64,000 bases of DNA from Clostridia bacterium (GTDB taxonomy: Bacteria; Bacillota; Clostridia; Oscillospirales; Acutalibacteraceae). The DNA is taken from positions 248,001 through 312,000 of the forward strand of contig JAFVTQ010000004.1 of NCBI GenBank assembly GCA_017503135.1. Direction: 5' to 3'. Shown piece by piece: positions 18,776 through 56,755 of the stretch (the first letter of the stretch is position 1; the number at the start of each line of letters is the position of its first letter). The notes under the pieces were generated by a model. The model searched no databases. It was not told the origin of the DNA and saw nothing but the letters and a program-made list of their open reading frames with translations. The position numbers and the translations under genes were made by a program.

Positions 18776-19174
18776 ATGTACGAAACAAATCCATATTTCT
18801 ACGGTACTGGTAGAAGAAAGAAATCTGTAGCTCGTGTTCGTGTATATGCAGGTACAGGTAAAATCACAATCAACGACAGAGATATCGACGATTATTTCGG
18901 TCTTGAAACACTTAAACTCATCGTTCGTCAGCCTCTTGCTCTTACAGGAACAGCTGATAAATTCGATATCGTTTGCCGTGTAGGCGGCGGCGGTGTTACA
19001 GGCCAGGCTGGTGCTATCCGTCACGGTCTTTCACGTGCTCTTCTTCAGTATGACGAAAATCTTCGTCCTGAACTCAAGAAGGCAGGTTTCTTAACAAGAG
19101 ACCCAAGAATGAAAGAAAGAAAGAAATACGGTCTCAAAGGCGCTCGTCGTGCACCTCAGTTCTCAAAGAGATAA
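18776..19174 (+). CDS. rpsI: 30S ribosomal protein S9
   Basis: 132 residues, full length. The N-terminal [20 protein letters not shown] and the basic C-terminal end [11 protein letters not shown]-type tail (RRAPQFSKR), which reaches the P-site tRNA, are intact. The last five codons and the stop (18 bp, 19157-19174) are repeated exactly at 19348-19365, the far end of the mini-element described separately. The resident copy is the functional end because the reading frame closes there. Confidence 0.97.
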
Positions 19175-19365
19175 AAGACAATATTTGTATTTTTCAACAC
19201 TCACCAGTCTGGTGGGTGTTTTTTTATTCAGTTTATCTTATTTATTTAGAGTTGTCTTTCATCCCTTTTCGGCCTTTGGGCACCTCGGAAAAGCACTCGG
19301 TGCTCTTCGCTAAAAATGATATACTATATCATTTTTTTACGCTCAGACAGTTCTCAAAGAGATAA
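19157..19365 (+). mobile_element. Gene-3'-end mini-element D (at rpsI)
   Basis: An 18-bp direct repeat (19157-19174 and 19348-19365; offset 191 bp) copies the final codons and stop of rpsI. Between the repeats lie a terminator (19196-19226), TTGTCTTT (inverted relative to the AAAGACAA after rpsI), a hairpin AGCAC-tcg-GTGCT and the family core hairpin AAAATGATAT-act-ATATCATTTT (19313-19335) flanked by TTCGCTAA and ACGCTCAGAC. A second terminator follows the displaced copy. The core sits in the opposite orientation, relative to the host gene, from copies A-C. Confidence 0.65.
19196..19226 (+). terminator. Terminator of rplM-rpsI (inside mini-element D)
   Basis: AACACtCACCAG / tTGGTGgGTGTT with seven T. 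It lies within the mini-element interval, so it may be element-supplied. Confidence 0.9.
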
Positions 19366-19388
19366 TCTGTATTATTTCAAGAACAACA

Positions 19389-37797: not shown

Positions 37798-37871
37798 TGG
37801 GGAATAGTGTAACGGTAGCACGACAGACTCTGACTCTGTTTGTTGGGGTTCGAATCCCTATTCCCCAGCCA
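37798..37871 (+). tRNA. tRNA-Gln (CTG)
   Basis: 74 nt with encoded CCA. The acceptor stem TGGGGAA/TTCCCCA, anticodon arm ACAGA-CTCTGAC-TCTGT (anticodon CTG) and T arm GGGGTTCGAATCCC all fold. The 3' part from 37849 is repeated exactly at 38033-38064. Confidence 0.97.
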
Positions 37872-38064
37872 TAAAAATAAAGACAAGTCATTTGACTTGT
37901 CTTTTATTTTTGTCTAAAAGGTGGTTGTGGGATTCGAACCCGTGAGGGTTTTGGCGTTAAGAAAACAATTCGGTGAATTGTTTTTAGCCAAAAGCACAAT
38001 GCGAATACCACATTCGCATTGTGAGTCTATAATTCGAATCCCTATTCCCCAGCCATAAAAATAA
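37849..38064 (+). mobile_element. Gene-3'-end mini-element A (at tRNA-Gln)
   Basis: A 32-bp direct repeat (37849-37880 and 38033-38064; offset 184 bp) copies the T-loop, acceptor 3' strand, CCA and flank of tRNA-Gln. Between the repeats: a terminator, an antisense T-arm-like GATTCGAACCC (37931-37941), core hairpin H1 (outer stem TTTTGGC/GCCAAAA, inner stem AAAACAATTC-ggt-GAATTGTTTT, 37949-37993) and hairpin H2 (CACAATGCGAAT / ATTCGCATTGTG, 37995-38023). A second, different terminator follows. No open frame. This accounts for most of the 350-bp gap after the tRNA. Confidence 0.7.
37879..37911 (+). terminator. tRNA-Gln terminator (inside element A)
   Basis: AAAGACAAGTCA / TGACTTGTCTTT followed by TATTTTTG. 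Confidence 0.9.
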
Positions 38065-38065
38065 G

Positions 38066-38097
38066 AAGGTAGGTCAAAGACCTGCCTTTTTATTTTC
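38066..38097 (+). terminator. Second terminator beyond element A
   Basis: AAGGTAGGTC-aaa-GACCTGCCTT with TTTATTTTC. It follows the displaced copy of the tRNA-Gln 3' end and differs in stem sequence from the first terminator. Confidence 0.85.
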
Positions 38098-56180: not shown

Positions 56181-56255
56181 GGCCCGGTGGTCAAGCGGTT
56201 AAGACACCGCCCTTTCACGGCGGTAACACGGGTTCGATTCCCGTCCGGGTCACCA
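56181..56255 (+). tRNA. tRNA-Glu (TTC)
   Basis: 75 nt with encoded CCA. Anticodon arm CCGCC-CTTTCAC-GGCGG, T arm CGGGTTCGATTCCCG. Part of its T arm (13 bp) recurs at 56433-56445. Confidence 0.97.
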
Positions 56256-56445
56256 AAAAGAAACAGCTACACGAAGTGTGGCTGTTTTCTTTTTGCCTGA
56301 ATTCAAATATAGGGAATCGAACCCGAGAGGGTTTTTGCGTCAAGAAAACAATTCGGGGAATTGTTTTTAGCAAAAAGGCGTGAGACATTTATGTCGAGCG
56401 TGCAGTATGCAAGGCGAAGCCGCAGCAGACGGTCGATTCCCGTCC
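56234..56445 (+). mobile_element. Gene-3'-end mini-element B (at tRNA-Glu)
   Basis: TCGATTCCCGTCC occurs at 56234-56246 in the tRNA and again at 56433-56445 (offset 199 bp). In between: a terminator, an antisense T-arm-like GAATCGAACCC (56314-56324), and core hairpin H1 with outer stem TTTTTGC/GCAAAAA and inner stem AAAACAATTC-ggg-GAATTGTTTT (56332-56376). The H2 hairpin of copies A and C is replaced by another sequence with GCAAGGCGAAGCCGC. The displaced copy is shorter than in A and C. Confidence 0.6.
56258..56297 (+). terminator. Terminator of tRNA-Glu
   Basis: AAAAGAAACAGCtACAC / GTGTgGCTGTTTTCTTTTT, a long stem ending in a T run. Confidence 0.9.
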
Positions 56446-56459
56446 ATATTACATAAAAA

Positions 56460-56493
56460 TAAAATAGAGTACACAAAAGTGTACTCTATTTTA
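56460..56493. terminator. Terminator between elements B and C
   Basis: TAAAATAGAGTACAC-aaaa-GTGTACTCTATTTTA, symmetric. It follows the displaced tRNA copies of both B (plus) and C (minus) and could serve either strand. Confidence 0.8.
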
Positions 56494-56494
56494 A

Positions 56495-56701
56495 TGGCAC
56501 GCTGGAAGGGATTCGAATTATAGATTCACAATGCGAATGGGAAATTCGCATTGTGCTCTTCGCTAAAAATGATATACCATATCATTTTCTTAACGCTCAG
56601 ACCCTCACGGGTTCGAATCCCTTATCCAAAATGTAAAAAATAAAGACGAAACAACCACAAGAGTCATTTCGTCTTTATTGGCACGCTGGAAGGGATTCGA
56701 A
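56495..56701 (-). mobile_element. Gene-3'-end mini-element C (at tRNA-Arg)
   Basis: A 23-bp repeat of the tRNA-Arg 3' end (resident 56679-56701, displaced 56495-56517; offset 184 bp, as in copy A). Between: hairpin H2 with the same 12-bp stem as A (CACAATGCGAAT/ATTCGCATTGTG, 56527-56555), core H1 with stem AAAATGATAT/ATATCATTTT (56566-56588), then GCTCAGAC and a T-arm-like GGGTTCGAATCCC (56610-56622). Read on the minus strand, the order and most bases match copy A, while the H1 stem differs by paired substitutions. Confidence 0.7.
56636..56678 (-). terminator. tRNA-Arg terminator (inside element C)
   Basis: On the minus strand AATAAAGACGAAAT / GTTTCGTCTTTATT followed by a T run. Confidence 0.88.
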
Positions 56702-56755
56702 CCCCCGACCTTTTGGTTCGTAGCCAAACACTCTATCCAGCTGAGCTACCAGCGC
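56679..56755 (-). tRNA. tRNA-Arg (ACG)
   Basis: 77 nt with encoded CCA on the minus strand. Anticodon arm TTTGG-CTACGAA-CCAAA gives ACG (read as ICG). T arm GGGGGTTCGAATCCC. Its 3' end is duplicated at 56495-56517. Confidence 0.97.

Follow-up and report, generated by a model that had tools for sequence, protein, structure and literature searches.

Gene-less palindromic repeats with target-matched flanks at the 3' ends of tRNA genes and rpsI in a Clostridia genome and its relatives

Four genes in the window, a 64,000-nucleotide stretch of contig JAFVTQ010000004.1 from a Clostridia bacterium (genome G000: 6 contigs, 1.2 Mb, 75% complete), are each followed by a short unit in which the 3' end of that gene is repeated (Table 1). 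The original prediction reported direct repeats of 18, 32, 13, and 23 bp at rpsI, tRNA-Gln, tRNA-Glu, and tRNA-Arg, with offsets of 191, 184, 199, and 184 bp, respectively; these coordinates, lengths, and offsets all hold, and the tRNA genes are where they had been reported, ARAGORN placing four tRNAs in the window. Specifically, copy A, located 3' of tRNA-Gln(ctg), contains the 32-bp repeat TTCGAATCCCTATTCCCCAGCCATAAAAATAA in two occurrences that are 100% identical and offset by 184 bp, and the first 10 stem bases of its terminator T1 (AAAGACAAGT) are shared by a terminator 3' of tRNA-Gln in the empty locus of genome G016. At tRNA-Glu (copy B), 13 exact bp lie within a 26-nt repeat of 77% identity at offset 199, and at tRNA-Arg (copy C), 23 exact bp lie within a 46-nt repeat of 80% identity at offset 184.

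Copy A and the minus strand of copy C are 82% identical over 135 bp (BLAST, E = 1.1e-32), as the prediction had claimed. When copy A was used as a BLAST query against its own genome, additional copies were found, besides the window tRNA copies, at tRNA-Pro(tgg), tRNA-Leu(cag), tRNA-Leu(gag), and tRNA-Thr(ggt), along with one further match at a site at which no tRNA was detected; the Leu(gag) locus carries two different units in tandem. A family of repeats that carry no gene and lie at the 3' ends of genes is confirmed; the interpretation first placed upon it is supported in part, as detailed below.

Comparison of the units reveals a common order consisting of the intact gene end, a terminator, an inverted copy of the T-arm, a hairpin payload, a direct copy of the gene end, and a terminator. 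A mini-hairpin (P2; CCC-GNRA-GGG in many copies) follows the inverted arm, and the payload itself is composed of the conserved hairpin P3 (GCGTTAAGAAAA, a stem, and TTTTTAGC) and at least one variable hairpin after it. If the gene end is written as L-o-R, the unit reads as the reverse complement of L-o, the payload, o-R, and a terminator; the two arms have o in common, which measures 5 to about 10 nt (just 5 nt in L140 and L073), and are predicted to be able to pair as a stem beneath the payload. The architecture originally proposed stands with regard to the gene end, terminator, core, and displaced copy, but the inverted T-arm copy had been overlooked, and at rpsI the core lies on the opposite strand, antisense to the gene, with an inverted arm that is weak by eye (11 of 12 bases). 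The rpsI 3' end is also occupied by units in five other genomes (L065, L070, L092, L112, and L123): P3 is antisense in 5/5, the units are in tandem in L092, and a clearly fitting inverted arm is seen in L070, L092, L112, and L123 but not in L065. At tRNA-Lys in L107, an apparent mirror image can be discerned by eye, in which a copy of the 5' half of the tRNA, P3, and a seemingly inverted middle part all lie upstream of the intact gene.

Table 1. Features of the four units in the window, in order of position; positions are counted from the first nucleotide of the window.
Feature	Position	Strand	Source or remark
rpsI 3' end, first copy of the 18-bp repeat	19157..19174	+	
rpsI copy, covariance model R1 match (P3), strand opposite to rpsI	19297..19368	-	G000:C1:267297-267368, E 1.9e-5
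rpsI copy, displaced direct repeat	19348..19365	+	offset 191
tRNA-Gln(ctg), intact target gene of copy A	37798..37871	+	ARAGORN; Rfam RF00005
Copy A direct repeat, first (in-gene) copy, T-loop to 9 nt beyond CCA	37849..37880	+	repeat search
Copy A terminator T1	37873..37915	+	inverted-repeat search
Copy A inverted arm (IR), exact reverse complement of tRNA-Gln T-arm 37846-37858	37929..37941	-	
Copy A P2, mini-hairpin CCC-GTGA-GGG	37939..37948	+	
Copy A P3, conserved hairpin GCGTTAAGAAAA..TTTTTAGC, payload hallmark	37954..37988	+	
Copy A P4, second payload hairpin, variable	37995..38023	+	
Copy A displaced direct repeat of tRNA-Gln 3' end	38033..38064	+	
Copy A second terminator T2	38065..38097	+	sequence; T1-T2 similarity
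tRNA-Glu(ttc), target of copy B	56181..56255	+	ARAGORN
Copy B inverted arm, 14 nt, reverse complement of 56229-56242	56312..56325	-	
Copy B P3 hairpin	56337..56371	+	P3 expression
Copy B displaced direct repeat, 13 exact nt	56433..56445	+	
Two-way terminator common to copies B and C	56460..56493	.	
Copy C displaced direct repeat of tRNA-Arg 3' end, 23 nt	56495..56517	-	
Copy C P3 hairpin	56562..56596	-	P3 expression
Copy C inverted arm, 15 nt, reverse complement of 56690-56704	56609..56623	+	
tRNA-Arg(acg), target of copy C	56679..56755	-	ARAGORN

Two samples demonstrate that both arms of a unit match the gene beside which it lies. The first consists of 37 units with an upstream tRNA, 25 from a pattern scan of public genomes and 12 from this genome and genus, hairpin stems with fewer than 7 perfect pairs having been dropped beforehand and 3 duplicates removed from an initial 40. 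To the unit's own tRNA end, the longest match averages 11.5 nt for the inverted arm and 16.2 nt for the direct arm; to tRNAs for other amino acids, the corresponding averages are 6.4 and 6.3 nt. For each arm, the own-tRNA match exceeds the null mean in 35 of 37 units. In the second sample, drawn from the covariance model census described below, an inverted repeat of at least 10 nt is present in 77 of 86 units (median 13 nt) and in 20% of null pairs, and a direct repeat of at least 11 nt in 77 of 86 (median 21 nt) and in 4% of null pairs. Across units, the length of the direct repeat ranges from 13 to about 75 nt. Judged by eye, the P2 stem likewise tracks the T-stem of the host tRNA, reading CTC/GAG in the tRNA-Glu units of G012 and G020 and CCC/GGG in that of the window.

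Several observations bear on structure. Compensatory changes are found in 7 of the 14 predicted pairs of the P3 stem in the consensus of an 18-sequence alignment, and among the ten units of this genome, five (copies A, B, and C, the Pro unit, and the second Leu(gag) unit) are predicted to fold such that the split T-arm is rebuilt with the payload protruding, while the other five are predicted to fold differently. At gathering thresholds, Rfam returned tRNA matches alone for the window and left the unit interiors uncovered; for ten loci searched at E ≤ 1, it returned tRNA and three matches far under their gathering scores.

The distribution of P3 was assessed with a pattern that contains no arm. 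This pattern occurs in at least 120 stretches of the genome collection, and the 80 matches listed by title belong mainly to Clostridia and Oscillospiraceae but also to Treponema, Bacteroidota, and Proteobacteria; it also occurs in 13 stretches of viral contigs. In 8 genomes picked as carriers the pattern occurs 1-9 times each, and the reversed pattern 0 times. Among the 120 stretches listed, 24 have a P3-like hairpin with a same-strand tRNA 30-600 nt upstream, a count kept low by the stem filter, and in further listed stretches the tRNA lies on the other strand. Two viral contigs (L145 and L149) carry a P3 variant that resembles that of the Treponema records, with a GNRA-like loop, just 5' of phage-type genes. 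In Sphingomonas panni (L057:1555-1589), P3 lies directly 3' of an rpsM-like ORF and ahead of an rpsK-like ORF, both named from translation, and its outer stem bases match the stop region of the rpsM-like gene.

A search of the whole genome and its relatives with a covariance model, as the original prediction had proposed, was conducted with model R1, which was trained on tRNA-associated units and includes the T-arm-like inverted arm. It returned 156 matches in 39 same-genus genomes, 0-14 in each and at least one in 35; the 75%-complete genome studied here has 10 copies, and among the 39, none were found in G001, G002, G005, and G050. For analysis, 110 of the 156 matches were selected and merged into 93 regions, 80 of which were fetched. 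In the 86 sources supplied, R1 matches 108 times, and 86 of these matches have a tRNA at most 700 nt upstream, representing 21 anticodons; this share is inflated, as the inverted arm is built into the model and the model also served to select the sources. The other 22 matches (for example L401, L413, and L437) have a T-arm-like inverted arm with no tRNA found within 700 nt upstream; some lie at contig ends, the 86 sources contain one tmRNA, and the parent gene of such units may lie beyond the contig end or have been lost. When 95 P3 matches were checked for frames at genes besides tRNA and rpsI, the best scores were again of the tRNA or rpsI type or reflected unrelated repeats.

Payload sequences follow a different pattern from that of the arms. 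When a single unit was kept for every combination of genome and tRNA, which left 65 units, the most similar payload belonged to a different tRNA for 52 of them, 11 times within one genome and 41 times between genomes; for the other 13 it came from the same tRNA in a different genome. Payloads at different tRNAs of one genome have a mean identity of 0.657, those at one tRNA in different genomes 0.643, and the remaining pairs 0.606; the first value was reached in 0/500 shuffles of genome labels and the second in 0/500 shuffles of tRNA labels. Payloads as much as 94-95% identical are found at different tRNAs, namely Leu(cag) and Pro in the genome studied here, and Pro of this genome and Glu of G014. 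Since payloads are common to different tRNAs while frames match their own tRNA, the payload travels without the frame, and the likeness of payloads at the same tRNA across genomes indicates that some units have been passed down at their site or exchanged there. The payload occurs in either orientation (L082, L088, L089, and the rpsI copies), and the same tRNAs also bear frames without payload or with unrelated hairpins. An inverted T-arm of at least 11 nt is present in 93 of 230 tRNA loci, a biased set, versus 45 of 230 for a null given by the best of up to six other tRNAs; 40 of the 93 are negative by the P3 expression, though several carry P3 variants that it misses. Another payload family, around GTCCATCTTTT..AAAAGGGACATA, is observed in the same inverted/direct frame at tRNA-Glu (L219, L227, and L230-L232) and tRNA-Arg (L251).

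P3 is also found within coding genes, where it has no frame. In L093 (G054, ~583-616) it lies within a reverse-transcriptase-like gene, as part of ~66 nt that replace 8 nt of an intact copy in the same genome, and in L105 (G055, ~1209-1243) within a transposase-like gene, both genes being named from their translations. The intact copies of the latter continue with GGGGTTCAGG and stop at the contig end just past the left junction, such that the insertion site is visible on one side only. Other coding genes of these two genomes apparently contain further P3-like hairpins. The insertions into coding genes indicate that some route of P3 movement needs no T-arm frame.

Loci that lack a unit occur within the genus. 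Inspection by eye of 20 same-genus tRNA-Gln(ctg) loci found P3 units in 2, a different hairpin occupying the frame in 3, an inverted arm and nothing else in 3, and none of these in 9; of the remainder, that of G012 has its inverted arm more than 300 nt away, that of G019 has a partial arm, and that of G007 is too short. Similarly, 10 tRNA-Glu loci include 3 P3 units, 1 truncated unit, and 6 with none. When one repeat and the interior are removed from the tRNA-Glu unit of G020, the result matches the empty locus of G016 at 172 of 200 positions, compared with 139 for the unexcised sequence; for the part 3' of the tRNA, the excised sequence scores 137, the unexcised sequence 1, and 200 shuffles at most 21. 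In this single, between-species pair, excision as originally predicted thus yields a homologue of the empty site, albeit not an identical one. The units, which carry no gene, come and go between species, and the occurrence of empty sites runs counter to the possibility that the same units are present at the same genes in all species. Ordinary tandem tRNA duplication fares no better, as duplication of a whole tRNA leaves the inverted arm and the shared payload unexplained.

In 28 of 76 units, the two terminators, T1 and T2, resemble each other more closely than do 99% of mismatched pairs, and a second and different terminator is consequently not the rule that had been proposed. Copy A is the lowest-scoring of the 28 (16.5), with a shared 9 nt (TAAAAATAA) contributing; the Glu and Arg copies of the window score 9.0 and 8.5 and are not among them. 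Many of the 28 lie in tandem arrays, in which unit duplication explains the likeness, and arrays can also be composed of different units (L006). In L429, which has one R1 match, the repeat is exact to 47 nt past the CCA and continues for 5 nt after one mismatch; it covers the terminator and 13 nt more (with the one mismatch), beyond which one copy gives way to the inverted arm and the other to unrelated flank. By eye, the tRNA-Arg terminators appear in different order in the window, G016, G045, and G012. That T1 and T2 are homologous in 28 of 76 units means that the repeat extends beyond the gene end, unlike attL/attR, and together with L429 and the varying order of the terminators this homology favors local duplication with unequal crossing-over and turnover of units over a repeat that is limited to an att core. 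Attempts to name the native terminator, T1 by the Gln locus of G016 or T2 by the Glu locus of G020, were set aside, both assignments resting on one locus each and both fitting given the widespread T1/T2 homology.

A search for an enzyme that might move the units was conducted in the same 39 same-genus genomes. The Y1 transposase has matches in 23 of the 39 and none in the genome studied here, and P3 was found at 0 of 43 Y1 loci (~1.5 kb on each side; the genus and ten other genomes or records) with an expression that recovers 3 of the 4 window copies and misses variants such as the rpsI copy; G055, G059, and G063 carry P3 and have no Y1 match. IntI exceeds its cut-off in 0/39 genomes; sub-threshold TIGR02249 matches occur in 36/39 and in all 14 control genomes, and no integrase lies inside a unit. 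Tyrosine recombinases are present in 36/39 and, being nearly ubiquitous, are possible helpers. IS110 (PF02371) is found in 5/39 genomes and not in G000, G021, or G041, and RVT_1 in 13/39. Of three 99%-complete carriers, G021 (7 copies) has no match to Y1_Tnp, PF02371, or RVT_1, G041 (14 copies) has no PF02371 or RVT_1 and a single borderline Y1 match of 23 bits, and G052 (13 copies) has one PF02371 match alone. No gene recurs beside P3: the 108 ORFs nearest to P3 loci outside the 37-unit sample represent 142 Pfam families, the commonest of which is found in 3. RAYT/Y1 was therefore rejected as the mover, given its absence from the genome studied here and from the neighborhood of P3, as were reverse transcriptase and IS110 as required movers, given the carriers that lack them; each of the four candidates, IntI included, is either missing, not linked to the units, or not needed.

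We consider it most likely, with a probability of roughly 0.38, that replication-coupled template switching copies a REP-like hairpin payload into gene ends able to form hairpins, with the intact gene left upstream. This account is rated above the others because it best covers flanks that belong to the recipient, the inverted arm, a terminator that falls within the repeat, and the finding of no linked gene; template switching and a reliance upon host machinery alone are what we infer from an established set of features, namely the anatomy, the target-matched flanks, a payload common to different tRNAs, the empty sites, the arrays, and the terminator within the repeat. The target would be a small hairpin at a gene end, such as the T-arm or the end of rpsI, and the unit would be placed 3' of the intact L-o-R and its terminator. 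At the replication fork, the T-arm hairpin would allow the nascent strand to switch template, and the T-arm would be copied backwards to give the inverted arm; the payload would next be taken from another unit via T-arm sequence common to tRNAs, and the nascent strand would then return to the T-loop, such that the 3' end and terminator are copied again. Insertion would be tolerated, since the intact gene stays upstream, and units would subsequently multiply by unequal crossing-over and be lost by recombination between repeats. Several findings sit uneasily with template switching: an inverted arm of 13-17 nt is very regular for such an accident, the strong conservation of P3 across phyla suggests a dedicated protein, and the likeness of payloads at the same tRNA across genomes (0.643) is what a cassette model predicts. 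Template switching accounts neither for that conservation nor for the frameless P3 in coding genes.

Next in probability is a putative transposase-like enzyme that would act on single-stranded, REP-like hairpins and insert the payload in T-loops and other hairpin loops, with only those events that also duplicate the gene end surviving because the target genes are essential. The dispersal of P3 over Clostridia, Treponema, Bacteroidota, and Proteobacteria among the 80 matches listed, its presence in viral contigs and coding genes, the covariation of its stem, and the occurrence of several unrelated payload families in one frame all agree with such an enzyme, which is nonetheless doubtful given that no protein family is linked to P3 (108 ORFs, 142 Pfam families, commonest in 3), that 0/43 Y1 loci have P3 by an expression finding 3/4 window copies, and that three genomes (G055, G059, and G063) carry P3 without a Y1 match. 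Somewhat less probable still is a cassette-like recombination, in which a single-stranded unit would rebuild a double-stranded T-arm in the manner of attC and be joined to a tRNA T-arm by a tyrosine recombinase. The layout required is that predicted for 5 of the 10 folds of this genome, and arrays of different units (L006), the varying terminator order at tRNA-Arg, the homologue of the empty site (G020/G016), and the likeness of payloads at the same tRNA between genomes would all follow; against it stand the other five folds, an arm overlap of just 5 nt in L140 and L073, the failure of IntI to exceed its cut-off in any of 39 genomes, a terminator that lies within the repeat, and payloads common to different tRNAs, which could not move as such a circle.

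Two further explanations carry considerably less weight. A structured RNA whose antisense and sense arms guide it to both strands of the gene end, thereby aiding its own placement, would follow the logic of bridge RNAs, and one antisense and one sense arm with an overlap of 5-10 nt, as well as a covarying stem, are indeed observed; however, bridge-RNA guides are shorter than the arms of the tRNA-end units, which reach 23 nt, and the restriction of IS110 to 5 of 39 genomes, G000, G021, and G041 not among them, makes such guidance improbable. The least probable explanation, and one that we disfavor, is that the units are scars of ordinary integrase-borne islands at tRNA genes. Such islands do apparently occur at the same tRNA-Arg in G020 (G020:C3:84400-144700), where two seem to lie in tandem with 45-nt repeats and a tyrosine-recombinase-like ORF adjoining the tRNA, but their repeats start in the anticodon loop and are accompanied by neither an inverted arm nor P3, and one payload across 21 anticodons is not expected of island scars. 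The last island repeat is followed by a native-type terminator and a remnant of an inverted arm. The original interpretation of the repeats as an attL/attR-like signature of site-specific integration is likewise not upheld, given the terminator often within the repeat (as in L429), the payload common to different tRNAs, and the differing signature of the G020 islands. Furthermore, entry of a circle bearing the 3' half of one tRNA into another would give rise to a chimeric tRNA, yet payloads up to 94-95% identical are found at different tRNAs, flanked in each case by sequence of the local tRNA.

The 156 matches in 39 genomes render testable the models of how gene-less palindromic repeats spread in bacteria, since their target-matched ends can be read and they include copies of differing age, arrays, and empty sites. 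It is tentatively proposed that the units represent a class of mobile element that moves the loop payload alone, the ends being rewritten at each site from the recipient, one inverted and one direct, such that the payload would in every case rest on a hairpin matched to the target while the essential gene stays intact; placement would be either templated by replication or carried out by a recombinase with the T-arm, common to nearly all tRNA genes, as a universal address. If the ends are written from the recipient, this would constitute a mode of insertion without known counterpart, and even if template switching alone is responsible, tRNA T-arms would be hot spots that capture hairpins while essential genes are spared. 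In addition, units at tRNA ends could mislead tools that call integrative elements from repeats of tRNA 3' ends.

A search of titles and abstract openings in the open-licence literature returned no description of hairpin units at tRNA ends, in agreement with the original statement that no such mini-element was known, and comparison with known systems reveals partial likenesses. The direct-inverted-direct order, with its junction at a palindrome, is characteristic of tandem inversion duplications and quasipalindrome template switching; the units share this order and differ in the foreign hairpin payload at the junction. Integron attC cassettes form arrays with a direct repeat at the unit ends, an inverted repeat before a variable hairpin, and a foldable site, all of which resemble what is observed here, but the arms of the present units are specific to each tRNA with no common R-box, IntI was found in 0/39 genomes, and the unit holds no gene. 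CIMEs and other integrative elements at tRNA 3' ends share the direct repeat of the 3' end, the intact gene, and the empty sites, while the units described here differ in the inverted arm, the shared payload with recipient flanks, the terminator inside the repeat, and the lack of an integrase in the unit; nor is the repeat confined to an att core with flanks from the element (28/76 units with homologous T1/T2; 47 nt in L429). Unlike those of MITEs, the inverted arms vary with the target, the repeat measures 13 to about 75 nt, and no transposase family is linked. REP/REPIN sequences with their RAYT are likewise dispersed, short, imperfect hairpins without a gene; here, no repeat-flanked RAYT was found, with P3 at 0/43 Y1 loci and no Y1 in the genome studied, and we know of no REP with a frame at tRNA ends. 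A tested feature consequently separates the units from integrative elements, attC cassettes, REP/RAYT, MITEs, and IS110. Polymerase switching between inverted repeats is reported to homogenise arms and invert spacers (PMC8604942), and Rickettsia palindromic elements are short palindromic repeats of several families that also occur within coding genes (PMC10969869), as P3 does in L093 and L105. Compared by description only, these elements differ from the units in the target-matched inverted and direct arms at tRNA ends, of which we know of no report for them. Taken together, the tRNA-end units resemble REP and Rickettsia palindromic elements as repeats and attC cassettes in layout, and are best described as bacterial palindromic repeats with a target-matched frame, a combination not seen in the open-licence literature searched and one that joins a shared payload to ends particular to each host gene.
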